Assembly (NCBI GenBank): GCA_030272155.1
Contig: CP126197.1
Location: 3,402,001 to 3,466,000 of the forward strand
Length of the DNA stretch: 64,000 nt
DNA from: Tetradesmus obliquus
Taxonomy: Eukaryota > Chlorophyta > Chlorophyceae > Sphaeropleales > Scenedesmaceae
Reading direction: 5' to 3'
Shown here: piece after piece, positions 3,867 through 64,000 of the stretch
How the letters are laid out: every line of letters begins with the position of its first letter
How positions within the stretch are numbered: the first letter of the stretch is position 1
Notes under the pieces: model-generated
Databases searched by the model: none
What the model saw: only the letters and a program-made list of their open reading frames with translations
Told to the model about the DNA's origin: nothing
Made by a program: the position numbers and the translations under genes

Positions 3867-4168
3867 GAAGAGGTCTGTTACAGGGGTGGGCAAGCTATCG
3901 CCCTAGAGCGAGTCACTTGCCCCTCTTTCAGCTCACATATCATGAGAACCCGATAGCAGGCCACAAGATGCAACCAAAGTAAAACTCCAGTTTGTTTGTG
4001 TTTGTTACACATGGGGGCCAGGCAATTCCAGCCTCTTGAACTGGCGTATCATACCAGCCAGGTAGGGTTTCAATTCCAACTCCAGAGGCATCTTGCAGCC
4101 CCTACCTCCCCATAAACCAACAAGTACATGCAGTGCAGCACGTGCGATGTGCAGCACGAAAAGCAGCA
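3867..4168 (-). mobile_element. ZA-old LINE copy 1, 3'-UTR fragment (split by a ZB fragment)
   Basis: The left edge of the array. Its 3' end reads (- strand) CCTGTAACAGACCTCTT, a diverged form of the ZA end CCTGTAACAAGCCTCTCTC. Only 3'-UTR sequence is present, and it differs from the ZA consensus at many positions, so it is an older subfamily. A ZB fragment is inserted at 3991. The copy ends at the gggtgctc motif at 4169. Confidence 0.75.
3991..4077 (-). mobile_element. ZB fragment, 87 bp, inserted in ZA-old
   Basis: This holds only the ZB 3'-terminal structured domain and TGTAAC tail. It is flanked by a perfect 8-bp target-site duplication aactccag (3983-3990 and 4078-4085) that matches the intact ZA sequence. 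That shows a genuine, severely 5'-truncated insertion. Confidence 0.85.
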
Positions 4169-4176
4169 GGGTGCTC

Positions 4177-5329
4177 TTTGTTTGTGTTTGTTACACATGG
4201 GGGCCAGGCAATTCCAGCCTCTTGAACTGGCGTATCATACCAGCCAGGTAGGGTTTCAATTCCAACTCCGTCCCCCACCACCATCACGACGGAACAGCAA
4301 GTCTGCAGCCTTACTGCCCGCCTAGCAAATTGACCACAATGCTGCAGCAGAACGGAGTGGCCGCCTCCAAGGAACAGCATGGCATGGCAAGCAAGCATGC
4401 AAGCGCACGGCATGATAGGGCATGCAAGCATACACACTTACAGAGACCTGGCTGCAACACCACACTGCTGTTGCTGCACGACAAGCACTAGGCTGTACTA
4501 CATCCAAGCAAGAAGAGAACCACTCCTACCGCTGCGGCTAGCTAAGCTGACCTACAAAAACAAAAACCACTCCTACCGCTACCTACATGCAGCAACTCCA
4601 CCAGATGGCTACACTGTCGCCACAAGTAAGGGCACCACCACAGCCCCAGGTAGCTGCCCAGACACGTAATGCATTTGACAACGGCTGATGTGAGAACAGC
4701 AATGCGAATGCAAGCACATTGCTGCTCCCTACGCGCAGCAGACACAAACCAAATAAAGTACACTGCCCAGACAGCACTACTGGCAGGCAATCCACTGATC
4801 CATAGCAGCAGTGGCAGGGGTCATCATCTGCAACACGTTGCTGCCGCTGCAGGCCACCAACTGCAGCAGCCTGCAGAAGGAATTTAAGGACACTCCAGAC
4901 ACTGAACCAGCAGTCCAGCACGCTCAACAGTCACAAGGGGTTGCCTAGCCAATCACATCATGTGGTGAAAGGCGATTGCAAGGGCACCGCAGCACCTCGA
5001 GCATTACCAGCACCTTGCCTGCTTCTGCTGTAGCCCTACTGCTGTGACCATGACACAACTCCAGGCGCCAGCTTGGGTACCAGCGAGCGCTCACAACTAA
5101 ACTATTGCTGAGCACATCTTCCTGAAGTTGTAGCCGACTGCCTGGGCTTCCACTGCGCGCTGCACGGCTGTCAACTGTGCTGTCTCTTCGGCGACCCGGC
5201 GTAGCTGCGTAGGCAGGCAGTATCGGCCTGCAGGACGCCACTCCTCTTATCTAATATAGCTTCCAGCATTAAAAGAAGCTGCACTAGACGGTCTTCCGAC
5301 TCGCGGGCCGCAACTGGCGCAGCCGGGCT
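4177..5329 (-). mobile_element. ZB copy, near full length
   Basis: This ZB copy lacks only about 40 bp at its 5' end. It lies between two copies of gggtgctc (4169-4176 and 5330-5337). It has private substitutions (for example cagtggcagg at 4810), consistent with greater age than copies to the right. Confidence 0.85.
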
Positions 5330-5803
5330 GGGTGCTCGAGAGAGGTCTGTTACAGGGGTGGGCAAGCGATCACCCTAAAGTGAGTCACTTGCCCCTCTTT
5401 CAGTTCACGTATCATGAGAACCCGATAGCAAGCCACAAGACGCAACCAAAGTAAAACTCCAGAGGCATCTTGCAGCCCCTATCTCCCCATAAACCAACAA
5501 GTACATGCAGTGCAGCATGTGCGAAGTGCAGCACGAAAATTTGTTTGTGTTTGTTACACATGGGGGCCAGGCAATTCCAGCCTCTTGAACTGGCGTATCA
5601 TACCAGCCAGGTAGGGTTTCAATTCCAACTCCGTCCCCCACCACCATCACGACGGAACAGCAAGTCTGCAGCCTTACTGCCCGCCTAGCAAATTGACCAC
5701 AATGCTGCAGCAGAACGGAGTGGCCGCCTCCAAGGAACAGCATGGCATGGCAAGCAAGCATGCAAGCGCACGGCATGATAGGGCATGCAAGCATACACAC
5801 TTA

Positions 5804-5850
5804 CACTATGGTCACCGAGATGTCCAGCTGCATGTCCAGGCATGTCCAGT
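5804..5850 (+). repeat. Left terminal inverted repeat of the CACTA element (47 bp)
   Basis: Starts CACTATGGTCACCGAGATGT and matches the reverse complement of 8474-8520 without a mismatch. The two ends diverge at position 48. Confidence 0.95.
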
Positions 5851-5965
5851 TGCATGGTGTGCAACTGGACATGCCATGTGGCATGTCCAGTGTGAGACTG
5901 GACATGGCCATGTCCAGCATGCTGCTGGACATCGAGTAGGTGACTGGACACGATACTGGACACGG
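5815..5965. repeat. Left subterminal repeats of the CACTA element
   Basis: About ten copies of ATGTCCAG or CTGGACAT in both orientations, some arranged as palindromes (for example gacatgccatgtggcatgtc). Such arrays are where CACTA transposases usually bind. Confidence 0.8.
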
Positions 5966-8387
5966 CAATTGGACTTTCATAAACTGCCTACTACCGTTAT
6001 ATCAAACGTATTTGATGCAGTAAACAAGTGTTCGCGGCAGGACAGCAATGTCGAGGTGCTTGGGTTGGCGCCCTCGACCCCCTGGTACCAAGTCACTGCA
6101 ACTGCAACTGCCAAGTGGGCAAGTGACCCATGGGCTGTAACACAATCAGCATGTAGCTGCTGCAATACAAACAGAATCTGGCAGCTGCTGCAATCACAAC
6201 AACATCAACAGCACGCAGCTGCTGCATGACAGCAAAGGCACCCAGCTGCTGCAATCACAACATAAGCAGTGAGGACACCACGCGGAACAGCTGCCAAGAA
6301 CTGCATTGACAAGATTGCGTCTCTACCACTTGTACAGATGATGCCTATGCCAACTGCATTCACTGTGCATCCTGTTGCAGGCAGCGCCAGCACAACAATG
6401 CACCAGCTGCCACTACCGCTGCATGCCACCATCTGCCAACGAAAACATACAAGTTCCAGCAGCTGCTGATCGCGCACTGGTGTCTCCATAGCCGGCATCA
6501 ACTGCGAGTTGGCAGGCTGCCACTGCCTGCATTGATCACAAGTGTAGCGGTTGTTTCAAAGAACACCCCTGCAGCAGTGCAGCAGAAACAGAGCAGATGC
6601 ACTTAGATTTGCATGCTGCAGCGTAGGATGTGGCACTTGTTGAGGTTGGCGTTATCTCAAGCAAGGTCTGGGCCAACCGGCGTTTGCGCGTTGATTGGCG
6701 CCCGCCACGCACCACTACATGCAACACTACAGAGCAGCAGCATCTGCGCCAACATAATCGCTGCCACTGAATCGCACATATGAGGCAGACTGCTTGCAAT
6801 GCCACACCGCTCAAGCTCACCAGGAAGTGCATCAGCCATGCCACGCTGCCGGAAAGTCGGCCCCTGTGTCTCTATAGGGAAGGTCTGCGCACCAACAGAG
6901 GTCTCATGTCAATATATCATCAAGGTGGTCTCCAAGCAGGCTGTCTGCTGCTGCATTAGATACAGTGGCGCCATGCTGACTGCAATCAAGTAGGACCCAT
7001 GCACGCAGGAAGTAAAAGCTGGATGGGTGGCGCGCACACCACATGGAGGGCATTGCGAGCAAGTATGGTGTGTGTGAAGTGCGTCGCAAGCACGTTCCAC
7101 ATTATGCAACTGCTGGCCTGCTGGGCATGCTGTCTGCTGCGTGCGTATGTTCATGCACGCGTTGCCAAGAATGATCACGACAAGCCCTGCAGCAAGCGGC
7201 ATGCTCTTGATTGGGAGAGCTGTCACTTCACAGCAGCAGCAGCAGTAGCAGCAGCTGTAACCTGCTACCTGTTAGGTTTCGTTATTCCGACCTACCTGTG
7301 ATGCTGGGAGACGGGCAGCTGACAGGAGCCTGCACACAGCAGCAGCAGCAACGCAGGTGACACACAACTGCACCTGTGGACAACCTGCATGCACCCAGCC
7401 TCTACAGCTGACATAGCCACGGCTGATGCTGCTATACCTGAAACTGATCTTGATCTGGTGATGGTGTGATCATTCCTGCGACAGTACTGCTGCACTGCTG
7501 CAACTGTAGCTGCCGCTGCTGCTGCTGTGAGCTGGGCGCCCTAGCAGCTGCAGGGCTGGGTGCTGTCGTTTCAGCCGCTGCTGATCTGGGTGAGAGTCGC
7601 TCACCATGTCATCAAAGTATCAAGATAAGCAGTAGCAGCTCCATGCGCTTTCTACAGCATTGAATTCCTGCAGGATCAACATTGCAGCTGCATAGTGCTT
7701 CAAGGACTGCTGCTGCTCAATGAGCAGGCGTCTGCAGCCTCACAAACGCCCAACAACCGCATTAATCTGTTGTCATTCATTAACGCTTTCAGCAATGGTC
7801 TCTGCCAGTGGACACGAGCTTGCAGTCTGTTTCAGCCCCGTGCACCATATGCAACGCAGCAGCAGTGCGCGACACAGGTGCGATCGCTGTAATGCTTCAG
7901 CAGTAATCATAATGATCCTTGTTTGCAGCTGTTTGCTTACCAGTAGACGTACAGTTCACGAGCGTATGCCATCTGGCCATTTTGTATTTTAACAAGTGAC
8001 ACACCTTGCAGCAGCGCGCAATGGGGCTATACGGGCCACTAAACTTACTGTACCAGAAATAGACGATGTGTTTGGAAAGGCTGCTGCTTCGGCAGCGGGG
8101 AAAAGTGGTGCAATGCTGTAGTGACATGCTGATCTTCGCCTTGAGGCGCTGTCGTGCCATAAGACACCATAAATGCTGCTTTATATGATGCTTCTTTACT
8201 CTATCGCACGCTTTTGCGTGAATATCAAGCCGGTGTTGACGTGATATCGACAAACCCTACAGCAAGCCCATGGGCTGGCCAGCTGACGTGCTGGCTGTTC
8301 AGCGACACAGTATAAGCGGCATACATGCAACAACACCTACTTGCGGCGTTTCAGCCGGGTATCGTGCCGTACAACGCATCAGCAGCA
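5966..8387. other. Interior of the CACTA element, no recognisable gene
   Basis: Unique sequence, not found elsewhere in the window and rich in CAGCTGCTG motifs. No conserved transposase motif is seen in any frame. The 118-codon frame at 7897-8253 (-) is Lys/His/Cys-rich, but I cannot assign it. Confidence 0.6.
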
Positions 8388-8391
8388 GCAC

Positions 8392-8512
8392 ATGTCCAGT
8401 TGCAGGCAGACTGCCAGTCCAGTGGACCTGCAACTGGACATGCAAACCCACCAACTGGACACGATTTGGTGCCACTGGACATGCCTGGACATGCAGCTGG
8501 ACATCTCGGTGA
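8392..8512. repeat. Right subterminal repeats of the CACTA element
   Basis: About eight CTGGACATG-type motifs, mostly inverted relative to the left array. One imperfect palindrome lies at 8396-8440. Confidence 0.8.
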
Positions 8513-8520
8513 CCATAGTG
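8474..8520 (-). repeat. Right terminal inverted repeat of the CACTA element (47 bp)
   Basis: Ends CACCGAG-type complement ...GGTGACCATAGTG and is the exact inverse of 5804-5850. Confidence 0.95.
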
Positions 8521-8578
8521 TTACAGAGACCTGGCTGCAACACCACACTGCTGTTGCTCAAAAAGCAGCAGGGTGCTC

Positions 8579-8650
8579 AGGAAGAAGAGGGGTTACACGG
8601 TGTGCACAGGCAACTACGTTGCAACGAACACCCGAAAATCTGGAACGTCA
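8579..8650 (-). mobile_element. ZC element fragment 1 (third family), about 72 bp
   Basis: Read on the - strand it ends GTGTAACCCCTCTTCTTC, the same TGTAAC-plus-short-tail design as ZA and ZB but with a different body. It lies between gggtgctc motifs at 8571 and 8651. The first ~57 bp recur at 8691. Confidence 0.6.
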
Positions 8651-8658
8651 GGGTGCTC

Positions 8659-8682
8659 GAGAGAGAGGTCTGTTACAGGGGT
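8659..8682 (-). mobile_element. 24-bp ZA-old micro-insertion
   Basis: The last 24 nt of a ZA-old element, between perfect gggtgctc duplications (8651-8658 and 8683-8690). This is reverse transcription that stopped just past the TGTAAC signal. Confidence 0.75.
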
Positions 8683-8690
8683 GGGTGCTC

Positions 8691-8832
8691 AGAAGAAGAA
8701 GAGGGGTTACACGGTGTGCACAGGCAACTACGTTGCAACGAACACCCGAAAACACAGGAAAACTGCAGGAAGCTCAGCACAGGCCGTCACTCATGTGAGG
8801 CCCAACCCCAGAGAAATGGCCCCCGTGTGTAA
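8691..8832 (-). mobile_element. ZC element fragment 2, about 140 bp
   Basis: Repeats the ZC terminal segment (gaagaagaggggttacacgg) and extends further 5' than fragment 1. Its far end (8814-8832) resembles the ZB 3' end in the opposite orientation. The full length of ZC is unknown from this window. Confidence 0.55.
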
Positions 8833-8862
8833 GTTTGTTTGTGTTTGTGTTTGTGTTTGTTT

Positions 8863-8882
8863 GAGAGAGGCTTGTTACAGGA
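8863..8882 (-). mobile_element. 20-bp ZA micro-insertion in a GTTT-rich tail
   Basis: gagagaggcttgttacagga, the very end of ZA, sits between ttgttt motifs (8857-8862 and 8884-8889). The host is an expanded ZB-like tail (gtttgtgtttgtg). Confidence 0.6.
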
Positions 8883-8889
8883 TTGTTTC

Positions 8890-9572
8890 TTTGTTTGTGT
8901 TTGTTACACATGGGGGCCAGGCAATTCCAGCCTCTTGAACTGGCGTATCATACCAGCCAGGTAGGGTTTCAGTTCCAACTCCGTCCCCCACCACCATCAC
9001 GACGGAACAGCAAGTCTGCAGCCTTACTGCCCGCCTAGCAAATTGACCACAATGCTGCAGCAGAACGGAGTGGCCGCCTCCAAGGAACAGCATGGCATGG
9101 CAAGCAAGCATGCAAGCGCACGGCATGATAGGGCATGCAAGCATACACACTTACAGAGACCTGGCTGCAACACCACACTGCTGTTGCTGCATGACAAGCA
9201 CTAGGCTATACTACATCCAAGCAAGAAGAAAACCACTCCTACCGCTGCGGCTAGCTAAGCTGACCTACAAAAACAAAAACCACTCCTACCGCTACCTACA
9301 TGCAGCAACTCCACCAGATGGCTACACTGTCGCCACAAGTAAGGGCACCACCACAGCCCCAGGTAGCTGCCCAGACACGTAATGCATTTGACAACGGCTG
9401 ATGTGAGAACAGCAATGCGAATGCAAGCACATTGCTGCTCCCTACGCGCAGCAGACACAAACCAAATAAAGTACACTGCCCAGACAGCACTACTGGCAGG
9501 CAATCCACTGATCCATAGCAGCAGTTGCAGGGGTCATCATCTGCAACACGTTGCTGCCGCTGCAGGCCACCA
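8890..9572 (-). mobile_element. ZB copy, 5'-truncated (0.68 kb)
   Basis: Starts with the ZB tail at tttgtttgtg and belongs to the CATGAC/short-A-run subgroup. It stops at gccacca, where the next ZB tail begins. Confidence 0.85.
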
Positions 9573-9574
9573 GT

Positions 9575-10590
9575 GTTTGTTTGTGTTTGTTACACATGGG
9601 GGCCAGGCAATTCCAGCCTCTTGAACTGGCGTATCATACCAGCCAGGTAGGGTTTCAATTCCAACTCCGTCCCCCACCACCATCACGACGGAACAGCAAG
9701 TCTGCAGCCTTACTGCCCGCCTAGCAAATTGACCACAATGCTGCAGCAGAACGGAGTGGCCGCCTCCAAGGAACAGCATGGCATGGCAAGCAAGCATGCA
9801 AGCGCACGGCATGATAGGGCATGCAAGCATACACACTTACAGAGACCTGGCTGCAACACCACACTGCTGTTGCTGCACGACAAGCACTAGGCTGTACTAC
9901 ATCCAAGCAAGAAGAAAACCACTCCTACCGCTGCGGCTAGCTAAGCTGACCTACAAAAACAAAAAAAAAAAAAAACCACTCCTACCGCTACCTACATGCA
10001 GCAACTCCACCAGATGGCTACACTGTCGCCACAAGTAAGGGCACCACCACAGCCCCAGGTAGCTGCCCAGACACGTAATGCATTTGACAACGGCTGATGT
10101 GAGAACAGCAATGCGAATGCAAGCACATTGCTGCTCCCTACGCGCAGCAGACACAAACCAAATAAAGTACACTGCCCAGACAGCACTACTGGCAGGCAAT
10201 CCACTGATCCATAGCAGCAGTTGCAGGGGTCATCATCTGCAACACGTTGCTGCCGCTGCAGGCCACCAACTGCAGCAGCCTGCAGAAGGAATTTAAGGAC
10301 ACTCCAGACACTGAACCAGCAGTCCAGCACGCTCAACAGTCACAAGGGGTTGCCTAGCCAATCACATCATGTGGTGAAAGGCGATTGCAAGGGCACCGCA
10401 GCACCTCGAGCATTACCAGCACCTTGCCTGCTTCTGCTGTAGCCCTACTGCTGTGACCATGACACAACTCCAGGCGCCAGCTTGGGTACCAGCGAGCGCT
10501 CACAACTAAACTATTGCTGAGTACATCTTCCTGAAGTTGTAGCCGACTGCCTGGGCTTCCACTGCGCGCTGCACGGCTGTCAACTGTGCT
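9575..10590 (-). mobile_element. ZB copy; host of the gtgct insertion series
   Basis: Sequence runs to caactgtgct, which in intact ZB continues gtctcttcgg. That intact context contains the gtgct motif found at the next nine junctions, so this copy looks like the original target. The internal A-run is unusually long here (about 15 A at 9962). Confidence 0.8.
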
Positions 10591-11785
10591 TTTTTGTTTG
10601 TGTTTGTTACACATGGGGGCCAGGCAATTCCAGCCTCTTGAACTGGCGTATCATACCAGCCAGGTAGGGTTTCAATTCCAACTCCGTCCCCCACCACCAT
10701 CACGACGGAACAGCAAGTCTGCAGCCTTACTGCCCGCCTAGCAAATTGACCACAATGCTGCAGCAGAACGGAGTGGCCGCCTCCAAGGAACAGCATGGCA
10801 TGGCAAGCAAGCATGCAAGCGCACGGCATGATAGGGCATGCAAGCATACACACTTACAGAGACCTGGCTGCAACACCACACTGCTGTTGCTGCACGACAA
10901 GCACTAGGCTGTACTACATCCAAGCAAGAAGAAAACCACTCCTACCGCTGCGGCTAGCTAAGCTGACCTACAAAAACAAAAAAAACCACTCCTACCGCTA
11001 CCTACATGCAGCAACTCCACCAGATGGCTACACTGTCGCCACAAGTAAGGGCACCACCACAGCCCCAGGTAGCTGCCCAGACACGTAATGCATTTGACAA
11101 CGGCTGATGTGAGAACAGCAATGCGAATGCAAGCACATTGCTGCTCCCTACGCGCAGCAGACACAAACCAAATAAAGTACACTGCCCAGACAGCACTACT
11201 GGCAGGCAATCCACTGATCCATAGCAGCAGTTGCAGGGGTCATCATCTGCAACACGTTGCTGCCGCTGCAGGCCACCAACTGCAGCAGCCTGCAGAAGGA
11301 ATTTAAGGACACTCCAGACACTGAACCAGCAGTCCAGCACGCTCAACAGTCACAAGGGGTTGCCTAGCCAATCACATCATGTGGTGAAAGGCGATTGCAA
11401 GGGCACCGCAGCACCTCGAGCATTACCAGCACCTTGCCTGCTTCTGCTGTAGCCCTACTGCTGTGACCATGACACAACTCCAGGCGCCAGCTTGGGTACC
11501 AGCGAGCGCTCACAACTAAACTATTGCTGAGCACATCTTCCTGAAGTTGTAGCCGACTGCCTGGGCTTCCACTGCGCGCTGCACGGCTGTCAACTGTGCT
11601 GTCTCTTCGGCGACCCGGCGTAGCTGCGTAGGCAGGCAGTATCGGCCTGCAGGACGCCACTCCTCTTATCTAATATAGCTTCCAGCATTAAAAGAAGCTG
11701 CACTAGACGGTCTTCCGACTCGCGGGCCGCAACTGGGCTGGGCCAGAGGGCAAAGCAAGCCAAGCCTTTTTACGCCTTGCTCAGG
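10591..11785 (-). mobile_element. ZB copy, full length (1,195 bp)
   Basis: Runs from the tail to the common 5' end (cgccttgctcagg on the + strand). Flanked by gtgct on both sides (10586-10590 and 11786-11790). Confidence 0.9.
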
Positions 11786-11790
11786 GTGCT

Positions 11791-12631
11791 TTTTTGTTTG
11801 TGTTTGTTACACATGGGGGCCAGGCAATTCCAGCCTCTTGAACTGGCGTATCATACCAGCCAGGTAGGGTTTCAATTCCAACTCCGTCCCCCACCACCAT
11901 CACGACGGAACAGCAAGTCTGCAGCCTTACTGCCCGCCTAGCAAATTGACCACAATGCTGCAGCAGAACGGAGTGGCCGCCTCCAAGGAACAGCATGGCA
12001 TGGCAAGCAAGCATGCAAGCGCACGGCATGATAGGGCATGCAAGCATACACACTTACAGAGACCTGGCTGCAACACCACACTGCTGTTGCTGCACGACAA
12101 GCACTAGGCTGTACTACATCCAAGCAAGAAGAAAACCACTCCTACCGCTGCGGCTAGCTAAGCTGACCTACAAAAACCAAAAACCACTCCTACCGCTACC
12201 TACATGCAGCAACTCCACCAGATGGCTACACTGTCGCCACAAGTAAGGGCACCACCACAGCCCCAGGTAGCTGCCCAGACACGTAATGCAGTTGACAACG
12301 GCTGATGTGAGAACAGCAATGCGAATGCAAGCACATTGCTGCTCCCTACGCGCAGCAGACACAAACCAAATAAAGTACACTGCCCAGACAGCACTACTGG
12401 CAGGCAATCCACTGATCCATAGCAGCAGTTGCAGGGGTCATCATCTGCAACACGTTGCTGCCGCTGCAGGCCACCAACTGCAGCAGCCTGCAGAAGGAAT
12501 TTAAGGACACTCCAGACACTGAACCAGCAGTCCAGCACGCTCAACAGTCACAAGGGGTTGCCTAGCCGATCACATCATGTGGTGAAAGGCGATTGCAAGG
12601 GCACCGCAGCACCTCGAGCATTACCAGCACC
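11791..12631 (-). mobile_element. ZB copy, 5'-truncated (0.84 kb)
   Basis: Ends at ccagcacca, followed by gggtgc. It has private changes such as aaccaaaaacc at 12175 and gcagttgac at 12288. Confidence 0.85.
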
Positions 12632-12638
12632 AGGGTGC

Positions 12639-12667
12639 GAGAGAGAGAGAGGCTTGTTACAGGAGAA
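12639..12667 (-). mobile_element. 29-bp ZA micro-insertion
   Basis: A ZA end with an expanded GA tail (about six GA units), between gggtgc motifs at 12633 and 12668. Confidence 0.75.
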
Positions 12668-12674
12668 GGGTGCT

Positions 12675-13868
12675 TTTTGTTTGTGTTTGTTACACATGGG
12701 GGCCAGGCAATTCCAGCCTCTTGAACTGGCGTATCATACCAGCCAGGTAGGGTTTCAATTCCAACTCCGTCCCCCACCACCATCACGACGGAACAGCAAG
12801 TCTGCAGCCTTACTGCCCGCCTAGCAAATTGACCACAATGCTGCAGCAGAACGGAGTGGCCGCCTCCAAGGAACAGCATGGCATGGCAAGCAAGCATGCA
12901 AGCGCACGGCATGATAGGGCATGCAAGCATACACACTTACAGAGACCTGGCTGCAACACCACACTGCTGTTGCTGCACGACAAGCACTAGGCTGTACTAC
13001 ATCCAAGCAAGAAGAAAACCACTCCTACCGCTGCGGCTAGCTAAGCTGACCTACAAAAACAAAAAAAACCACTCCTACCGCTACCTACATGCAGCAACTC
13101 CACCAGATGGCTACACTGTCGCCACAAGTAAGGGCACCACCACAGCCCCAGGTAGCTGCCCAGACACGTAATGCATTTGACAACGGCTGATGTGAGAACA
13201 GCAATGCGAATGCAAGCACATTGCTGCTCCCTACGCGCAGCAGACACAAACCAAATAAAGTACACTGCCCAGACAGCACTACTGGCAGGCAATCCACTGA
13301 TCCATAGCAGCAGTTGCAGGGGTCATCATCTGCAACACGTTGCTGCCGCTGCAGGCCACCAACTGCAGCAGCCTGCAGAAGGAATTTAAGGACACTCCAG
13401 ACACTGAACCAGCAGTCCAGCACGCTCAACAGTCACAAGGGGTTGCCTAGCCAATCACATCATGTGGTGAAAGGCGATTGCAAGGGCACCGCAGCACCTC
13501 GAGCATTACCAGCACCTTGCCTGCTTCTGCTGTAGCCCTACTGCTGTGACCATGACACAACTCCAGGCGCCAGCTTGGGTACCAGCGAGCGCTCACAACT
13601 AAACTATTGCTGAGCACATCTTCCTGAAGTTGTAGCCGACTGCCTGGGCTTCCACTGCGCGCTGCACGGCTGTCAACTGTGCTGTCTCTTCGGCGACCCG
13701 GCGTAGCTGCGTAGGCAGGCAGTATCGGCCTGCAGGACGCCACTCCTCTTATCTAATATAGCTTCCAGCATTAAAAGAAGCTGCACTAGACGGTCTTCCG
13801 ACTCGCGGGCCGCAACTGGGCTGGGCCAGAGGGCAAAGCAAGCCAAGCCTTTTTACGCCTTGCTCAGG
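12675..13868 (-). mobile_element. ZB copy, full length
   Basis: Reaches the common 5' end at tgctcagg. Flanked by gtgct (12670-12674 and 13869-13873). Confidence 0.9.
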
Positions 13869-13873
13869 GTGCT

Positions 13874-13930
13874 GGGAGAGAGGCTTGTTACAGGAGAAGG
13901 CAAGCTATCACCCGAGAGTGAGTCACCCGA
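13874..13930 (-). mobile_element. ZA micro-insertion, about 55 bp
   Basis: Holds the ZA tail, TGTAAC and the terminal hairpin (gagtgagtcac), then stops. gtgct follows at 13933. Confidence 0.75.
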
Positions 13931-13937
13931 GGGTGCT

Positions 13938-14316: not shown

Positions 14317-14322
14317 GGGTGC

Positions 14323-14922: not shown

Positions 14923-14928
14923 GGGTGC

Positions 14929-17479: not shown

Positions 17480-17486
17480 GGGTGCT

Positions 17487-49430: not shown

Positions 49431-49437
49431 CCAGGTC

Positions 49438-53000: not shown

Positions 53001-54433
53001 CCAACCCAGGCGACGTGTTGGGCTTGGAGTCGGACAGCGCCTTCAGAACTGCTTCTTCTGTAACTGTTGTGCTGCCATCTGCTGCTGCTGGCTGCCGAGG
53101 CAAGCTGGCGACGGCTGCGAGGATGGCAGCCTGGGCGGCTGGGTCCACTGTCGGCTGCGCACTCACACCAGCCCACTGCGTGATGGCCACCTTGGCGGGC
53201 CCTGCACCCTCCCACACATATGCGCCGGCCGCGCTGCGCAGAGCAACCACCTTCCGTGAGGTAGGAGACCGCTCCAGGGCACGCAACTGCTCTGTGATGC
53301 AGGGGTTGGGCTGTTCGCCGCGGTGCAGCCACTGCTGCCGCTGCAGGCGCTCGCTGGCTGTCCAAGCTGCCTGCTGCGCGGCGCGGAGCGCCGCTCGAGC
53401 AGCAGTCAGCGCTGCCATGGCTGTGCCGATCTGCGGCTGGCCTGCTGCTGCGCCAAGCTGGGTGAGGGCATCCTGCACTTGCTGCTGGGCAGCAGCATAG
53501 GACGGCAGCGCCGTGTCAGCGCGCCATGCCTTGCGAATCTCCCGGCACTTGGCCAGCAGCCTCTGCTTGAAGCTAGGCCACCAGACAAGGCGGGCAGGGT
53601 CGGATGCTGGCTCTCCCTGCAGCGCGACAAGCACCCATGCCTTCAGCTGGGCGCGGTGGGGCAGGCTGCTCCAGAAGTCCACACGGGCACGGGCAAGGCC
53701 AGGGCCAGTGGGTTTGGGGGGCTGCAGGGGAGCCAGCTCAAGCACCAGGGGGAAGTGGTCCGAAACACCGGAGGGAGCTGTGGTGCAGGACACCACGCTG
53801 GCGCGCAGTGCGCTGCCAACATAAGCTCGATCCAGCCGCGCTACATGTCCAATCTGCGGGTTGCGATGGATGAACGTGTAGCTGCGGCGCGTAGGGTGCA
53901 AGCACCGGTACGCATCAGCAGCACCAGGTGCCGCTGCTTGCCAAGCCCGCCGGGACGGGGCGTCAGACGTGGTGGGCTGGCCGGCCAGGCAGCGTCTGTC
54001 AACAGCAGGATCATCCACAAAGTTCCAGTCGCCAATGAAGATGCTGTTGGCAGGATTGGCTGCCCAGAGCGGCGCCAGCGTATCTGCAATGTAGGTCTGA
54101 CGGTCCACGGAGGCGTTGGGACAATAGACGTTAGCAAGATTGATAGTATGGCCACCCCACTTGAAGTGGAGCACCATCAAACGGCCGCGGGCGTCCCTGT
54201 CGGCATCAGCCTCAGGCAGCACTTGCAGGGAGCCCTCGGATACTAGCTGCCGCTGCCACAAGACGAGATTGCCAGCTGAGTAGGGGTGCAGGGGGTCAGT
54301 GTTGATGCAGTACTTGTAGTCAAACCCTGCATGATGGGGCTGCTGCGTGGCAGCAGCCCGCTGAGCTGCTGCTGCATTCAGAGCCGTCATCACCTGCGCA
54401 ACCTCATCATACTGCAATCTGCACTCTTGCACG
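50032..54433 (-). CDS. ZA ORF2: endonuclease-reverse transcriptase, N-terminally truncated
   Basis: About 1,466 codons without a stop; an apparent 1,478-residue frame begins at an ATG (54468) in the neighbouring ZA end (numbering below uses it). Residues ~13-250: APE-type endonuclease that would nick the target, with NVYCPN (113), GDWN (146) and SDHFPL (236); the first strands with the catalytic N and E are lost. Residues ~480-780: reverse transcriptase, with SPGLDGLP (486), YRPITLLNTDYR (545), DFAKAYD (613), GVRQGCPLSP (669) and catalytic FADD (711). C-terminus: zf-RVT-like knuckle C1271-C1273-C1277-H1283-C1287, then a Gln-rich stretch (~1390-1425). No RNase H is seen. Reverse transcriptase looks intact but the endonuclease is incomplete, so this copy should not move by itself. 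It shows that an active source existed very recently. Confidence 0.9.
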
Positions 54434-54440
54434 GCAGGTC

Positions 54441-55232
54441 GAGAGAGGCTTGTTACAGGAGAAGGCAAGCTATCACCCGAGAGTGAGTCACTCGCCCTAC
54501 TTTCAGCTCACATATCGTATGAACTCGATAGCAAGCCACAAGACGCCACCAAAGAAAACTCCAGAGGCGTCTCGCAGCCCCTATCTCCCCATAAACGAAC
54601 ATGTACATGCAGGGCAGCAAGTGCGAAAAGCAGCACGAAAAGCAGCATGTGCTCCACGCACCAGGCAAAAAGCGCACAGGGAAGGACAAGCATGGTCCAA
54701 ACAGTAAGCGGGGTGCACAAAGGTGCTGCTCACCATGAATGTCTGGCATGATTGCATCAAGGCACTGCTGTACTCACCAGACTGCAGCAAGCAGGAGCAT
54801 GCATAACTGACGCAGTGCACGACTGACAGGCAAATCAAAGCAAACTAAGGCAAACTAAGGCAAACTAGGGCTCTGCTGCTTCTGCAATCCTTACGGCTGA
54901 CAAGGACAGAAACACGCAGCACGGAGGAAAGAGCTGAGAAACCAGCGCTGTGACACCCAACACATGCAACATGTCCTTGACAGAAACTGGAAAATCGACA
55001 ACTGCTGACAGCACAACATGCAGAGGCAGGAAGGTCAACCAGAGCGGGGCGCCAGTATAATGCGCAGCTGCGCTGGATCAGAGCACAGAAACGGGTGATT
55101 GCCAGGCACCGCAACCCGCCAAGTAGCGGGCGCTGCCTCTGTTGCCACAAAATCAGCAAGCAACTCCCAAAACCTTAACACCGCTTGCTGCTTAGCCTCC
55201 TGTAACATCTGCGCTACCAGCTGTTGTCGCTG
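54441..55232 (-). mobile_element. ZA copy, 5'-truncated (0.79 kb)
   Basis: 3' UTR plus about 66 ORF2 codons. cacgcagcac variant and a private agtataatg. Confidence 0.88.
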
Positions 55233-55238
55233 CAGGTC

Positions 55239-56132
55239 TTTGTTTGTGTTTGTTACACATGGGGGCCAGGCAATTCCAGCCTCTTGAACTGGCGTATCAT
55301 ACCAGCCAGGTAGGGTTTCAATTCCAACTCCGTCCCCCACCACCATCACGACGGAACAGCAAGTCTGCAGCCTTACTGCCCGCCTAGCAAATTGACCACA
55401 ATGCTGCAGCAGAACGGAGTGGCCGCCTCCAAGGAACAGCATGGCATGGCAAGCAAGCATGCAAGCGCACGGCATGATAGGGCATGCAAGCATACACACT
55501 TACAGAGACCTGGCTGCAACACCACACTGCTGTTGCTGCACGACAAGCACTAGGCTGTACTACATCCAAGCAAGAAGAAAACCACTCCTACCGCTGCGGC
55601 TAGCTAAGCTGACCTACAAAAACAAAAAAACCACTCCTACCGCTACCTACATGCAGCAACTCCACCAGATGGCTACACTGTCGCCACAAGTAAGGGCACC
55701 ACCACAGCCCCAGGTAGCTGCCCAGACACGTAATGCATTTGACAACGGCTGATGTGAGAACAGCAATGCGAATGCAAGCACATTGCTGCTCCCTACGCGC
55801 AGCAGACACAAACCAAATAAAGTACACTGCCCAGACAGCACTACTGGCAGGCAATCCACTGATCCATAGCAGCAGTTGCAGGGGTCATCATCTGCAACAC
55901 GTTGCTGCCGCTGCAGGCCACCAACTGCAGCAGCCTGCAGAAGGAATTTAGGGACACTCCAGACACTGAACCAGCAGTCCAGCACGCTCAACAGTCACAA
56001 GGGGTTGCCTAGCCAATCACATCATGTGGTGAAAGGCGATTGCAAGGGCACCGCAGCACCTCGAGCATTACCAGCACCTTGCCTGCTTCTGCTGTAGCCC
56101 TACTGCTGTGACCATGACACAACTCCAGGCGC
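55239..56132 (-). mobile_element. ZB copy, 5'-truncated (0.89 kb)
   Basis: aatttaggga subgroup (with 21272 and 56704). Ends at ccaggc. Confidence 0.88.
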
Positions 56133-56137
56133 AGGTC

Positions 56138-56700
56138 TGTTTGTGTTTGTTACACATGGGGGCCAGGCAATTCCAGCCTCTTGAACTGGCGTATCATACC
56201 AGCCAGGTAGGGTTTCAATTCCAACTCCGTCCCCCACCACCATCACGACGGAACAGCAAGTCTGCAGCCTTACTGCCCGCCTAGCAAATTGACCACAATG
56301 CTGCAGCAGAACGGAGTGGCCGCCTCCAAGGAACAGCATGGCATGGCAAGCAAGCATGCAAGCGCACGGCATGATAGGGCATGCAAGCATACACACTTAC
56401 AGAGACCTGGCTACAACACCACACTGCTGTTGCTGCACGACAAGCACTAGGCTGTACTACATCCAAGCAAGAAGAAAACCACTCCTACCGCTGCGGCTAG
56501 CTAAGCTGACCTACAAAAACAAAAAAAACCACTCCTACCGCTACCTACATGCAGCAACTCCACCAGATGGCTACACTGTCGCCACAAGTAAGGGCACCAC
56601 CACAGCCCCAGGTAGCTGCCCAGACACGTAATGCATTTGACAACGGCTGATGTGAGAACAGCAATGCGAATGCAAGCACATTGCTGCTCCCTACGCGCAG
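56138..56700 (-). mobile_element. ZB copy, 5'-truncated (0.56 kb)
   Basis: ctggctacaac subgroup. Ends at ctacgcgcag, so element sequence and junction overlap. Confidence 0.87.
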
Positions 56701-56703
56701 GTC

Positions 56704-57896
56704 TTTTGTTTGTGTTTGTTACACATGGGGGCCAGGCAATTCCAGCCTCTTGAACTGGCGTATCATACCAGCCAGGTAGGGTTTCAATTCCAACTCCGTC
56801 CCCCACCACCATCACGACGGAACAGCAAGTCTGCAGCCTTACTGCCCGCCTAGCAAATTGACCACAATGCTGCAGCAGAACGGAGTGGCCGCCTCCAAGG
56901 AACAGCATGGCATGGCAAGCAAGCATGCAAGCGCACGGCATGATAGGGCATGCAAGCATACACACTTACAGAGACCTGGCTGCAACACCACACTGCTGTT
57001 GCTGCACGACAAGCACTAGGCTGTACTACATCCAAGCAAGAAGAAAACCACTCCTACCGCTGCGGCTAGCTAAGCTGACCTACAAAAACAAAAAAACCAC
57101 TCCTACCGCTACCTACATGCAGCAACTCCACCAGATGGCTACACTGTCGCCACAAGTAAGGGCACCACCACAGCCCCAGGTAGCTGCCCAGACACGTAAT
57201 GCATTTGACAACGGCTGATGTGAGAACAGCAATGCGAATGCAAGCACATTGCTGCTCCCTACGCGCAGCAGACACAAACCAAATAAAGTACACTGCCCAG
57301 ACAGCACTACTGGCAGGCAATCCACTGATCCATAGCAGCAGTTGCAGGGGTCATCATCTGCAACACGTTGCTGCCGCTGCAGGCCACCAACTGCAGCAGC
57401 CTGCAGAAGGAATTTAGGGACACTCCAGACACTGAACCAGCAGTCCAGCACGCTCAACAGTCACAAGGGGTTGCCTAGCCAATCACATCATGTGGTGAAA
57501 GGCGATTGCAAGGGCACCGCAGCACCTCGAGCATTACCAGCACCTTGCCTGCTTCTGCTGTAGCCCTACTGCTGTGACCATGACACAACTCCAGGCGCCA
57601 GCTTGGGTACCAGCGAGCGCTCACAACTAAACTATTGCTGAGCACATCTTCCTGAAGTTGTAGCCGACTGCCTGGGCTTCCACTGCGCGCTGCACGGCTG
57701 TCAACTGTGCTGTCTCTTCGGCGACCCGGCGTAGCTGCGTAGGCAGGCAGTATCGGCCTGCAGGACGCCACTCCTCTTATCTAATATAGCTTCCAGCATT
57801 AAAAGAAGCTGCACTAGACGGTCTTCCGACTCGCGGGCCGCAACTGGGCTGGGCCAGAGGGCAAAGCAAGCCAAGCCTTTTTACGCCTTGCTCAGG
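56704..57896 (-). mobile_element. ZB copy, full length (1,193 bp)
   Basis: aatttaggga subgroup. Reaches the common 5' end. gcaggtc on both sides. Confidence 0.9.
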
Positions 57897-57903
57897 GCAG
57901 GTC

Positions 57904-58025
57904 TTGTTTGTGTTTGTTACACATGGGGGCCAGGCAATTCCAGCCTCTTGAACTGGCGTATCATACCAGCCAGGTAGGGTTTCAATTCCAACTCCGTCCC
58001 CCACCACCATCACGACGGAACAGCA
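57904..58025 (-). mobile_element. ZB fragment, 122 bp
   Basis: Terminal domain only, truncated at ggaacagcaag. From here rightwards the junction reads gcaaggtc instead of gcaggtc. Confidence 0.85.
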
Positions 58026-58030
58026 AGGTC

Positions 58031-58797
58031 TTTTGTTTGTGTTTGTTACACATGGGGGCCAGGCAATTCCAGCCTCTTGAACTGGCGTATCATACCAGCC
58101 AGGTAGGGTTTCAATTCCAACTCCGTCCCCCACCACCATCACGACGGAACAGCAAGTCTGCAGCCTTACTGCCCGCCTAGCAAATTGACCACAATGCTGC
58201 AGCAGAACGGAGTGGCCGCCTCCAAGGAACAGCATGGCATGGCAAGCAAGCATGCAAGCGCACGGCATGATAGGGCATGCAAGCATACACACTTACAGAG
58301 ACCTGGCTACAACACCACACTGCTGTTGCTGCACGACAAGCACTAGGCTGTACTACATCCAAGCAAGAAGAAAACCACTCCTACCGCTGCGGCTAGCTAA
58401 GCTGACCTACAAAAACAAAAAAAACCACTCCTACCGCTACCTACATGCAGCAACTCCACCAGATGGCTACACTGTCGCCACAAGTAAGGGCACCACCACA
58501 GCCCCAGGTAGCTGCCCAGACACGTAATGCATTTGACAACGGCTGATGTGAGAACAGCAATGCGAATGCAAGCACATTGCTGCTCCCTACGCGCAGCAGA
58601 CACAAACCAAATAAAGTACACTGCCCAGACAGCACTACTGGCAGGCAATCCACTGATCCATAGCAGCAGTTGCAGGGGTCATCATCTGCAACACGTTGCT
58701 GCCGCTGCAGGCCACCAACTGCAGCAGCCTGCAGAAGGAATTTAAGGACACTCCAGACACTGAACCAGCAGTCCAGCACGCTCAACAGTCACAAGGG
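58031..58797 (-). mobile_element. ZB copy, 5'-truncated (0.77 kb)
   Basis: ctggctacaac subgroup. Ends at tcacaaggg before gcaaggtc. Confidence 0.88.
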
Positions 58798-58806
58798 GGC
58801 AAGGTC

Positions 58807-59898
58807 GAGAGAGGAGAGAGAGAGGCTTGTTACAGGAGAAGGCAAGCTATCACCCGAGAGTGAGTCACTCGCCCTACTTTCAGCTCACATATCGTATGAA
58901 CTCGATAGCAAGCCACAAGACGCCACCAAAGAAAACTCCAGAGGCGTCTCGCAGCCCCTATCTCCCCATAAACGAACATGTACATGCAGGGCAGCAAGTG
59001 CGAAAAGCAGCACGAAAAGCAGCATGTGCTCCACGCACCAGGCAAAAAGCGCACAGGGAAGGACAAGCATGGTCCAAACAGTAAGCGGGGTGCACAAAGG
59101 TGCTGCTCACCATGAATGTCTGGCATGATTGCATCAAGGCACTGCTGTACTCACCAGACTGCAGCAAGCAGGAGCATGCATAACTGACGCAGTGCACGAC
59201 TGACAGGCAAATCAAAGCAAACTAAGGCAAACTAAGGCAAACTAGGGCTCTGCTGCTTCTGCAATCCTTACGGCTGACAAGGACAGAAACATGCAGCACG
59301 GAGGAAAGAGCTGAGAAACCAGCGCTGTGACACCCAACACATGCAACATGTCCTTGACAGAAACTGGAAAATCGACAACTGCTGACAGCACAACATGCAG
59401 AGGCAGGAAGGTCAACCAGAGCGGGGCGCCAGTACAATGCGCAGCTGCGCTGGATCAGAGCACAGAAACGGGTGATTGCCAGGCACCGCAACCCGCCAAG
59501 TAGCGGGCGCTGCCTCTGTTGCCACAAAATCAGCAAGCAACTCCCAAAACCTTAACACCGCTTGCTGCTTAGCCTCCTGTAACATCTGCGCTACCAGCTG
59601 TTGTCGCTGTTGTTGTTGATGCAGCTGCTGCTGCTGTCGGCGCTGCTCTACCAGCTGATTATGCTGTTGCTGCGCAGCAGTGAGAGCTGCATGCTGTAGT
59701 GTATCAGTGATAAGCGCCTGGCCCGCCGGCAGCGGCGGTGGCTGCTGCACGGCCAGGGCGGGCGGCGGGATGCTCAGCTTATTAGCATGTCGTCTGCCAA
59801 CATCCATGGCATTTAGAGCAGCTAGGCAGACAACCTTCCAAACGCCCCTGCGGAGCTTAGTAGGGCCAGCTGGCGGCTGCATCAACCAAACATGCCGC
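58807..59898 (-). mobile_element. ZA copy, 5'-truncated (1.09 kb)
   Basis: Expanded tail gagagaggagagagagagg. 3' UTR plus about 162 ORF2 codons (59412-59898). Confidence 0.88.
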
Positions 59899-59918
59899 AA
59901 GGTCTTTGTTTGTGTTTG

Positions 59919-59923
59919 TTACA
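59919..59923 (-). terminator. UGUAA poly(A) signal at the ZB 3' end (representative)
   Basis: TGTAAC on the - strand, followed by an A-rich tail AAACACAAACAAA. Same position relative to the end as in ZA. Confidence 0.75.
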
Positions 59924-60010
59924 CATGGGGGCCAGGCAATTCCAGCCTCTTGAACTGGCGTATCATACCAGCCAGGTAGGGTTTCAATTCCAACTCCGTC
60001 CCCCACCACC
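59924..60010 (-). other. Cloverleaf-like 3' domain of ZB (representative)
   Basis: On the + strand tggggg pairs with ccccca 80 nt apart. It encloses three short arms: aggc/gcct (7-nt loop), ctgg/ccag, and gtagg/ccaac (one mismatch, loop with tttcaat). The + strand version even ends CCACCA. It is present in all ZB copies, including those cut to under 130 bp. It may be the reverse-transcriptase recognition structure, or an antisense tRNA relic. Confidence 0.4.
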
Positions 60011-61100
60011 ATCACGACGGAACAGCAAGTCTGCAGCCTTACTGCCCGCCTAGCAAATTGACCACAATGCTGCAGCAGAACGGAGTGGCCGCCTCCAAGG
60101 AACAGCATGGCATGGCAAGCAAGCATGCAAGCGCACGGCATGATAGGGCATGCAAGCATACACACTTACAGAGACCTGGCTGCAACACCACACTGCTGTT
60201 GCTGCACGACAAGCACTAGGCTGTACTACATCCAAGCAAGAAGAAAACCACTCCTACCGCTGCGGCTAGCTAAGCTGACCTACAAAAACAAAAAAAACCA
60301 CTCCTACCGCTACCTACATGCAGCAACTCCACCAGATGGCTACACTGTCGCCACAAGTAAGGGCACCACCACAGCCCCAGGTAGCTGCCCAGACACGTAA
60401 TGCATTTGACAACGGCTGATGTGAGAACAGCAATGCGAATGCAAGCACATTGCTGCTCCCTACGCGCAGCAGACACAAACCAAATAAAGTACACTGCCCA
60501 GACAGCACTACTGGCAGGCAATCCACTGATCCATAGCAGCAGTTGCAGGGGTCATCATCTGCAACACGTTGCTGCCGCTGCAGGCCACCAACTGCAGCAG
60601 CCTGCAGAAGGAATTTAAGGACACTCCAGACACTGAACCAGCAGTCCAGCACGCTCAACAGTCACAAGGGGTTGCCTAGCCAATCACATCATGTGGTGAA
60701 AGGCGATTGCAAGGGCACCGCAGCACCTCGAGCATTACCAGCACCTTGCCTGCTTCTGCTGTAGCCCTACTGCTGTGACCATGACACAACTCCAGGCGCC
60801 AGCTTGGGTACCAGCGAGCGCTCACAACTAAACTATTGCTGAGCACATCTTCCTGAAGTTGTAGCCGACTGCCTGGGCTTCCACTGCGCGCTGCACGGCT
60901 GTCAACTGTGCTGTCTCTTCGGCGACCCGGCGTAGCTGCGTAGGCAGGCAGTATCGGCCTGCAGGACGCCACTCCTCTTATCTAATATAGCTTCCAGCAT
61001 TAAAAGAAGCTGCACTAGACGGTCTTCCGACTCGCGGGCCGCAACTGGGCTGGGCCAGAGGGCAAAGCAAGCCAAGCCTTTTTACGCCTTGCTCAAGGTC

Positions 61101-63233
61101 GAGAGAGAGGCTTGTTACAGGAGAAGGCAAGCTATCACCCGAGAGTGAGTCACTCGCCCTACTTTCAGCTCACATATCGTATGAACTCGATAGCAAGCCA
61201 CAAGACGCCACCAAAGAAAACTCCAGAGGCGTCTCGCAGCCCCTATCTCCCCATAAACGAACATGTACATGCAGGGCAGCAAGTGCGAAAAGCAGCACGA
61301 AAAGCAGCATGTGCTCCACGCACCAGGCAAAAAGCGCACAGGGAAGGACAAGCATGGTCCAAACAGTAAGCGGGGTGCACAAAGGTGCTGCTCACCATGA
61401 ATGTCTGGCATGATTGCATCAAGGCACTGCTGTACTCACCAGACTGCAGCAAGCAGGAGCATGCATAACTGACGCAGTGCACGACTGACAGGCAAATCAA
61501 AGCAAACTAAGGCAAACTAAGGCAAACTAGGGCTCTGCTGCTTCTGCAATCCTTACGGCTGACAAGGACAGAAACATGCAGCACGGAGGAAAGAGCTGAG
61601 AAACCAGCGCTGTGACACCCAACACATGCAACATGTCCTTGACAGAAACTGGAAAATCGACAACTGCTGACAGCACAACATGCAGAGGCAGGAAGGTCAA
61701 CCAGAGCGGGGCGCCAGTACAATGCGCAGCTGCGCTGGATCAGAGCACAGAAACGGGTGATTGCCAGGCACCGCAACCCGCCAAGTAGCGGGCGCTGCCT
61801 CTGTTGCCACAAAATCAGCAAGCAACTCCCAAAACCTTAACACCGCTTGCTGCTTAGCCTCCTGTAACATCTGCGCTACCAGCTGTTGTCGCTGTTGTTG
61901 TTGATGCAGCTGCTGCTGCTGTCGGCGCTGCTCTACCAGCTGATTATGCTGTTGCTGCGCAGCAGTGAGAGCTGCATGCTGTAGTGTATCAGTGATAAGC
62001 GCCTGGCCCGCCGGCAGCGGCGGTGGCTGCTGCACGGCCAGGGCGGGCGGCGGGATGCTCAGCTTATTAGCATGTCGTCTGCCAACATCCATGGCATTTA
62101 GAGCAGCTAGGCAGACAACCTTCCAAACGCCCCTGCGGAGCTTAGTAGGGCCAGCTGGCGGCTGCATCAACCAAACATGCCGCATAGCAAGCGGCGGGCG
62201 GCCTGCAGCCCGCGTGCACCAAGCAGCAGGCAACTCAGACAGCACACTGTCAATCACTGCTACCGCAACAGGGCACTCCCAAAAATGATGAACCCAACCA
62301 GGACAGGCAGCGCCACACATGCAAGTGTCACCCGACTTGTGCATACGCTGCGATGTCGGCAGGCCATCCATAATAAGCCGCCAGTACAACTCTTTGAAAT
62401 TATTATCCCAGCGCATCTTCCAAAGCATGCTCTGGTTAGCTGCCACCCACTTCAAGCCATCAATCACTGCTGCTGGTGCAGCACCTGAGCCCAGCGCAGC
62501 CTGGACAAACCCAGTGCGCTTCGCACGGCGCTCAGCACGCAGCGGACCAAGCTGCAGTGAGGTGGCTTCACTAACAGACAATTGTGCAACAGGAACAGCC
62601 TTGCCTCGGACATTTTGCCAACCCAGCCGAGCCACCAACATGGCCTCAACTTGCTGTTCTGCTGCAGAAGGTATACATGGTGGGTCCGGCACAGCCGCAG
62701 GCGGCCAAGGCCGGTCTGCGGCAGGATGCTGCACAACAGGCAAAACAGCCATAGTCCATGCAACGGGCAGTTTATCAACCAGGCCTTGCAAATCCTCAGC
62801 CTCGTTGTCAGCATTGCTGTAGTTGGAGCCGTAAGGCAGCAACGGGTGCGGCAACTGCTGCTGAACAACACGCTGAATGAGATACCACGCCCGAATAAGA
62901 TCAGCCACAGTGCGAAGACGCGGCCTGCATTTGCCGCCACGACACTCATGCTCCCTGCGCTTAGCGGGCACCGGCAGGCACTGCAGCCCGCCCGGCACAA
63001 ACCCAAGCCCAGCTTGCAGGAAGGGGTTGGCAAACACTGGCGCCAAGCTGCACCAAGCCCCAGGCGCCAGCACTGGCGCGTCCTGCACTGCCTGCAACTG
63101 CTGTCGCAGCTGCTGCATGTCGGACAGCTGCTGCGGATGCGGCAGGGGCAGCACAGGGGAGGGCGCGGCTGGTGCCAGCGCCTTCACATCACGGACTGGG
63201 CCCAGTGCTTGAAGACCAGCAATCATGCGGCGC
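61101..63233 (-). mobile_element. ZA copy, 5'-truncated (2.1 kb)
   Basis: 3' UTR plus about 512 ORF2 codons, truncated at catgcggcg. caaggtc on both sides. Confidence 0.9.
61697..63233 (-). pseudogene. ZA ORF2 C-terminal fragment (about 512 codons)
   Basis: Near-identical to residues ~967-1478 of the long ORF2, with zinc knuckle and Gln-rich tail but no catalytic domain. Confidence 0.85.
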
Positions 63234-63239
63234 AAGGTC

Positions 63240-63992
63240 GAGAGAGGCTTGTTACAGGAGAAGGCAAGCTATCACCCGAGAGTGAGTCACTCGCCCTACT
63301 TTCAGCTCACATATCGTATGAACTCGATAGCAAGCCACAAGACGCCACCAAAGAAAACTCCAGAGGCGTCTCGCAGCCCCTATCTCCCCATAAACGAACA
63401 TGTACATGCAGGGCAGCAAGTGCGAAAAGCAGCACGAAAAGCAGCATGTGCTCCACGCACCAGGCAAAAAGCGCACAGGGAAGGACAAGCATGGTCCAAA
63501 CAGTAAGCGGGGTGCACAAAGGTGCTGCTCACCATGAATGTCTGGCATGATTGCATCAAGGCACTGCTGTACTCACCAGACTGCAGCAAGCAGGAGCATG
63601 CATAACTGACGCAGTGCACGACTGACAGGCAAATCAAAGCAAACTAAGGCAAACTAAGGCAAACTAGGGCTCTGCTGCTTCTGCAATCCTTACGGCTGAC
63701 AAGGACAGAAACATGCAGCACGGAGGAAAGAGCTGAGAAACCAGCGCTGTGACACCCAACACATGCAACATGTCCTTGACAGAAACTGGAAAATCGACAA
63801 CTGCTGACAGCACAACATGCAGAGGCAGGAAGGTCAACCAGAGCGGGGCGCCAGTACAATGCGCAGCTGCGCTGGATCAGAGCACAGAAACGGGTGATTG
63901 CCAGGCACCGCAACCCGCCAAGTAGCGGGCGCTGCCTCTGTTGCCACAAAATCAGCAAGCAACTCCCAAAACCTTAACACCGCTTGCTGCTT
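63240..63992 (-). mobile_element. ZA copy, runs to cttgctgct
   Basis: 3' UTR plus about 50 codons. The right junction is not aggtc but the element's own sequence cgcttgctgct, which intact ZA continues as tagcctcc. It may be the host of a further, fifth insertion series. Confidence 0.82.
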
Positions 63993-64000
63993 TTTGTTTG
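63991..64000 (-). mobile_element. Start of another ZB copy (cut by window end)
   Basis: tttttgtttg matches the ZB tail. Only 10 bases are visible. Confidence 0.6.

Follow-up and report, generated by a model that had tools for sequence, protein, structure and literature searches.

The window analysed here, a stretch of 64,000 nucleotides from the green alga Tetradesmus obliquus (contig CP126197.1, C7:3402001-3466000; genome of 104.7 Mb in 17 contigs), carries an array of retroelement copies. For a protein encoded in the flank, the nearest named match among 4 hits comes from Tetradesmus obliquus (60% over 29% of the query). Four element families, designated ZA, ZB, ZC and ZD, lie on the minus strand with their 3' ends leftward. 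The large inner array, built of ZA and ZB copies, spans 8837-66712, about 58 kb, ending 2.7 kb past the window, and comprises 61 element heads (32 ZB and 29 ZA) from 8863 to 66678. Heads 37112 and 49438 are manual additions, their neighbours having been merged by the program. The right-hand continuation was examined for 40 kb past the window, up to window coordinate 104000. An earlier note on this DNA had placed the array at 3867..64000; the inner array is confirmed, with limits at 8837-66712, and the start at 3867 belongs to an outer array. All inner-array copies are oriented with the 3' end leftmost, the sole exception being an inverted piece of 58 bases. The main features are as follows.

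3872..8690, minus strand: left arm of the outer, older array (ZC, ZB, ZC, ZD stub, ZC stub), with gggtgctc common to the copies
8691..8836, minus strand: left half of the host ZD element, ending ...gtgtgtaagttt, 3' end leftmost
8837-8862: ZB-like 3' stub of 26 bases, preceding the first counted head
8837..64000 and on to 66712 (L010:2712), minus strand: ZA/ZB array, read as occupying a single site

The inner array splits one ZD element, whose right half resumes at 66713 with ggcatatggcc, the sequence after 66712 being ggcatatggccatg. Other ZD copies have this site intact and read gtgtgtaagtttcggcatatggccatg. This stretch was found in 5 of 10 ZD-related loci, as gtgtgtaagtttcggcatatggcc in L031, L041, L043 and L046 and with one letter off (gtttggg) in L036, with a further unbroken site at 67429; the reference stretch was taken from L046 and, around base 886, includes another ZD-like head. 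The two halves are supported as parts of one copy because the 11-base sequence ggtgggtgctc bounds the host at its outer ends (8680-8690 and 67283-67293) and occurs nowhere else in 114 kb. The right arm of the outer array begins at 67294, behind the ZD right half. The array lies at 3.41-3.47 Mb within a 6.12-Mb contig and ZD sequence resumes rightward, so growth at a chromosome end does not apply.

Junctions between consecutive copies share short motifs, here termed tags. In the outer array, gggtgctc begins at 4169, 5330, 8571, 8651 and 8683 and, beyond the window, at 67286. In the inner array the tag runs, given by following heads, are gtgct/gtgc at 10597-18697, caatc at 20669-36157, cgctc at 37074-42596 and aggtc at 43192-63240. 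At least 5 bases are common to 49 of the 60 neighbouring junction pairs, counted after hand-trimming of the repeated-head junctions 37112 and 58818 (47/60 before trimming). With the ends of full-length ZB copies capped at 1195 and as many as two end letters passed over in a suffix match, the common suffixes of the 60 pairs sum to 346, compared with 154 ± 13 in shuffled orders and a maximum of 214 among 5000 shuffles. The longest-common-substring sum, 417 against 286 ± 13, was reached in 0 of 20000 shuffles, and the same held (0 of 20000) with the family order kept fixed. The earlier note's observation that junction motifs are common over long runs is therefore borne out, with every quoted motif located and sharing beyond every order shuffle. 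Among the remaining pairs, 8 junctions carry no inherited tag, 2 are accounted for by a dimer described below and 1 is a 4-base match. The 5' joints use microhomology, with a mean of 1.5 bases and at least 1 base in 35 of 49 junctions.

Between runs, the motif changes at the truncated tail of a copy. The four interruptions quoted in the earlier note were all located, caactgtgct|gtctc at 10590, gccaatc|acatc at 20665, gcgctc|acaac at 37071 and ggaaggtc|aacca at 43191, and the changes in the window are listed below.

10584..10590, plus strand: tail ...ctgtgct, leading to the gtgct run
20659..20665, plus strand: tail gccaatc, leading to the caatc run
37064..37071, plus strand: tail gagcgctc, leading to the cgctc run
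43184..43191, plus strand: tail ggaaggtc, leading to the aggtc run
63984..63992, plus strand: tail ttgctgctt (gctgct), the next change following directly at 64604 (actggc), outside the window

Other tagless junctions lie before heads 9580, 10597 (the gtgct change) and 19889.

The direction of inheritance was assessed from letters newly joining a shared tag. These fall in the copy immediately to the left in 55 of 67 cases, compared with 24 of 64 in the mirror test of letters shared and then lost (Fisher 1.7e-7, the letters not being independent). Examples include the gcaag tail at 58027, which yields gcaaggtc in the junctions that follow, ggcgccag at 49402, which yields gccaggtc, and gtgcac at 24145, which yields gcacaatc. 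Eleven of the 12 misses sit in two junctions, gccaatc at 20669 (reference gccgatc) and gacaatc at 30000 (after the dimer), which are read as alignment effects. As new tag letters come mostly from the copy directly to the left, the array is taken to have grown from left to right. A previous version of the test, comparing letters encoded by the left and by the own copy, was weakly asymmetric (96 against 77 letters; 20, 17 and 10 ties among 47 pairs) and was replaced by the sharper one because the 5' joints themselves use microhomology.

An array in which tags are shared, depend on copy order and pass from left to right, in which one host is split and no neighbour pair recurs, very probably arose through some 60 rounds of target-primed reverse transcription, one after another, at a single position within one ZD element. 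The site would be constant to about one base, with a nick in the plus strand between a variable left side and the constant right flank (a)ggcatatggcc. Priming from the left side would add a ZA or ZB copy, usually 5'-truncated, and the bases left of the nick, typically 5-9 (an upper bound that includes microhomology), would be duplicated along that copy's right-hand edge, rebuilding the nick. The rightmost copy would then be the newest, and a run would be a stretch of insertions each copying the preceding tag. Where the duplication is short or absent, the truncated tail of the new copy would serve as the left side and be inherited later, so that the motif drifts or switches; we infer that the motif switches are near-zero-duplication events at the same nick. 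The core of the earlier note, repeated target-primed reverse transcription at a site rebuilt on the 5' side beside an unchanged flank, is retained here.

Two exceptional copies within the array carry additional information.

25963..29990, minus strand: ZA-ZA dimer, read as one insertion, with no tag between the copies and the acaatc tag returning afterwards
35290..36148, minus strand: ZA copy with an inverted 5' piece (36091-36148, 58 bases), as from twin priming

The dimer matches positions c1r 12323-16350 of a second array, on contig C1, over 4028 bases including the junction, with 0 mismatches, and its junction on C1 agrees with the gcgc tag used there. Most simply, a transcript reading through both copies of the C1 dimer became integrated in C7 as a single unit. 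A template jump at 27357/27358 was considered and rejected in favour of this transfer, because the gcgc tag continues across the junction in C1 and all 4028 bases are identical. An inverted 5' piece is typical of twin priming, and both the dimer insertion and the inverted piece fit an RNA reverse-transcribed at a nick.

The earlier note had instead treated each new motif as a new nested site within the last copy, with the displaced right halves of the hosts following in reverse order. Such serial nesting agrees with the first copy of each run stopping where its intact sequence contains the motif, and with the ordinary nested insertions with resumed hosts found nearby. The former becomes automatic under growth at one nick, however, because the new motif is that copy's truncated end. 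None of the five predicted halves resumes as a displaced half between 66713 and 104000, by exact strings or by alignment, which is the outcome that the earlier note had named as refuting its proposal. The strings aaccagagcgg (68352 and 73330) and tagcctcctg (73486) are internal to ZC and ZA copies with their own heads (67782 and 72734), in an order other than predicted, and the only headless ZA match right of 66713, at 77207 (55 bases at 76%), is a CTG run. The array abuts the ZD right half and ZD is the sole host to resume, so the array is not serially nested in the strict form of the proposal. Rescue of the idea would require one deletion of all right halves, ending no more than a base or two away from the ZD split. 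Five ordinary nested insertions were inspected on C7 and C1, namely ZB in ZC (3990), ZB plus a DNA transposon in ZC (5539), a DNA transposon in ZB (5805), and ZB in ZA and ZD in ZB on C1, and in all five the host resumes. Serial nesting is very unlikely. Concatenation in a few events, through template jumping of the reverse transcriptase or read-through transcripts, is suggested by the dimer, identical to that of C1 and free of an internal tag, and by a comparable tagless junction at c1r 66776/66777. Jumps leave no target duplication between copies, in conflict with the sharing of at least 5 bases in most pairs, and this route accounts only for tagless junctions that are followed by a return of the earlier tag; as the origin of the whole array it is very unlikely.

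Block tandem duplication or unequal crossing-over could produce the uniform orientation and the near-identical copies, and a cluster on contig C8 does contain a tandem duplication, with a 19.3-kb period. In the C7 array, by contrast, no consecutive pair of family and truncation point recurs among the 60 pairs. Beyond full-length ZB (1195) and 24-base ZA stubs, a single exact truncation point repeats (743, twice), with differing tags, and the tags drift by acquiring letters of the adjacent copy, a change that crossing-over does not bring about. Unequal crossing-over was rejected for this array, which lacks recurring blocks, the C8 duplication serving as contrast, and block duplication is extremely unlikely as its builder. 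The claim of uniform orientation without unequal crossing-over accordingly stands, with no sign of crossing-over detected in this array. Endonucleases of this type often prefer pyrimidine|purine sites, the tags are mostly pyrimidine-ended and the ZD site is itself pyrimidine|purine, raising the idea that the left motif is the preferred site of a sequence-specific endonuclease and is cut wherever present. Against this, the left side was replaced several times during continued growth, and the six switch contexts stand uninterrupted elsewhere in the array 13, 14, 11, 18, 14 and 24 times. The left-hand letters alone therefore do not call the enzyme, and a motif-directed cut is scarcely credible as the explanation.

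Several observations weigh against growth at one nick or temper its support. The 8 of 60 junctions without an inherited tag can be accommodated only by further assuming near-zero duplication. If such copies were joined directly to the right flank, microhomology with that flank would be expected. At the five late switches the element's next letters match aggcatatgg by 1, 1, 1, 2 and 5 bases (sum 10, P 3e-4), compared with any match in 8 of 45 other truncated copies (mean 0.24). This test was post hoc, took the flank base a from the final junction and covered 5 of 8 switches, those before heads 9580, 10597 and 19889 being omitted; with the letters of a single ZB reference copy, the first of the five scores 0 and the sum falls to 9 (P 1e-3). 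The age signal is weak and mixed. On C7, a single ZA copy near the left end, where older copies should lie, is clearly divergent (14932, second of 22 scored, 16 differences per kb), and three later ones score 4-24 per kb, partly from head letters. On C1, the first 3 of 16 scored copies are divergent (15-19 per kb), but two ZA copies further left (c1r 1-2166), outside the scored set, closely match the reference (99.9-100% alike). An insertion on C1 at c1r 2221 apparently used a nick 47 bases away. For the ZC host of the outer array, resumption was not seen, its next letters, gaaagcacaggg, occurring once, inside the ZC copy at 67782; a near-zero-duplication event would explain this. Finally, the right flanks of the C7 and C1 arrays are unrelated.

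Since the left side is replaced during growth and the two right flanks differ, neither the left motif nor a shared right sequence explains the return of insertion to the same base. We infer that whatever marks the nick for renewed insertion belongs to the right flank or to the junction, not to the left-hand motif, with a local right-flank mark, chromatin or an unfinished junction as candidates. A tentative proposal, held with low confidence, is that the 5' junction of each new copy itself signals the next insertion independently of sequence, the element returning to the junction or never fully leaving it and so maintaining a self-renewing focus. If true, arrays of this type would preserve the order of retrotransposition events and offer a route to centromere-like repeat domains from one starting nick.

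The two families forming the array differ in coding capacity, and representative copies are given below.

49438..54436, minus strand: longest ZA copy in the array, 5'-truncated, with an endonuclease and reverse transcriptase frame (ORF, open reading frame, 50032-54468, overrunning the copy by 32 bases)
17489..18683, minus strand: full-length ZB copy of about 1195 bases

ZA is a long interspersed nuclear element (LINE), with full-length C1 copies of about 7.67 kb containing two ORFs of 748 and 1518 amino acids (copy within L019:800-8600). The 748-residue ORF has no Pfam match. The reverse transcriptase was recognised as RVT_1 with E values of 2.3e-29 (window copy) and 2.4e-29, and the endonuclease as Exo_endo_phos with 26.1 bits on the full-length C1 copy, above the cut-off of 24.5, the window copy reaching 21.1 bits, under that cut-off. 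Among the 120 of 655 matches listed, the named ones are from Chlamydomonas, Haematococcus and Nannochloris. ZA copies show variable 5' truncation and target duplications, as in APE-type (L1-like) LINEs; a poly(A) 3' tail was not found on ZA, which terminates in tgtaacaagcctctctc, and ZA is therefore not called L1 in the strict sense. ZB, presumably non-autonomous, terminates in tgtaacaaacacaaacaa with a short A run of variable length, and 12 of its 32 array copies extend to base 1184 or further. ZC is LINE-like, and ZD is an additional repeat family. The motif tgtaac stands in all four families, about 20 bases or less from the 3' end. ZA and ZB alternate at one site within one tag chain, suggesting that the same enzymes insert both and that those of ZA may also mobilise ZB. 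Four ZA copies (24978, 30742, 43934 and 63992) are truncated 743-753 bases from the 3' end, within 10 bases of one another, possibly reflecting a pause of the reverse transcriptase.

The second large array, on C1, has the tags gcgcc, gagaag and gcgag and was scanned on one strand. Its order-dependent sharing is weaker, the observed value being reached by 401 of 20000 shuffles, perhaps due to the resemblance of the gagaag tag to the ZA head. A 46-base sequence with 3 genome occurrences at up to 3 mismatches (C1:4948484, C1:5017783 and C1:5025669) flanks this array as two direct copies, the third being inverted, with one mismatch, further out; the flanking pair may represent one insertion with a long duplication. 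Small shared-tag runs occur on C3 (gcgaacc) and C12 (tgcccc). Among the best-scored places, large clusters on C7 and C1 are accompanied by several smaller ones, with more than one on C1; as far as these places go, they do not fall one per chromosome. In the C8 cluster (C8:1486001-1526000, L024-L027), pieces of ZA, ZB and ZD are tandemly duplicated with a 19,333-base period.

Telomeric LINE arrays grow at one end, and GilM and GilT of Giardia form such arrays. The C7 array shares with these and with the Drosophila telomeric elements HeT-A, TART and TAHRE, described as forming head-to-tail arrays (PMC10088271), the succession of head-to-tail LINE copies; it differs in its internal position, flanked on either side by chromosomal sequence, and in the target duplication that accompanies most steps. 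The closest likeness is to Zepp of Coccomyxa/Chlorella C-169 and ZeppL of Chlamydomonas, which form centromeric LINE clusters whose arrays are attributed to insertion into existing copies (PMC8226300; PMC3446292). These are likewise green-algal LINEs with endonuclease and reverse transcriptase and mostly 5'-truncated tandem 3' ends, the likeness being one of organisation. Clusters of truncated copies in one orientation are what the C7 and C1 arrays present, and the C7 array is accordingly called a variant of Zepp-type LINE arrays. It differs in growth resolved to about one nucleotide, an inherited and drifting target duplication, a single resumed host and two alternating families. The excerpts of these two papers that were compared contain no comparable junction analysis, and the titles and abstract openings of related literature do not describe inherited target duplications in such arrays. 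Separately, the site-specific LINEs R1 and R2 re-use one exact position. The C7 array resembles them in the repeated use of one position, but the C7 and C1 arrays share no target sequence, as their right flanks differ.

Centromere-like LINE clusters of algae have been ascribed to nested insertion in general terms. In the C7 array most junctions reveal the preceding copy, making order, duplication length, truncation and 5' joining readable through some 60 insertions in a row. The array can serve as an insertion log from oldest to newest, its growth mechanism becoming testable, and head-to-tail repeats can form without recombination.

Further insertions and repeats accompany the arrays. A DNA transposon-like insert of about 2.7 kb lies at 5805-8520 in the left arm of the outer array, its ends mutually inverted (actatggtcaccgagatgtccagctgcatg...), within a ZB copy that resumes at 8521. 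The ZD right half carries an insertion at about 2728-3000 of L010, in which a tRNA-like stretch lies between two copies of tgtaacgtgatggggtctataggccgg...ggtatcgttaca. A CTG triplet repeat of 28 units occupies window positions 1035-1119, in the left flank.

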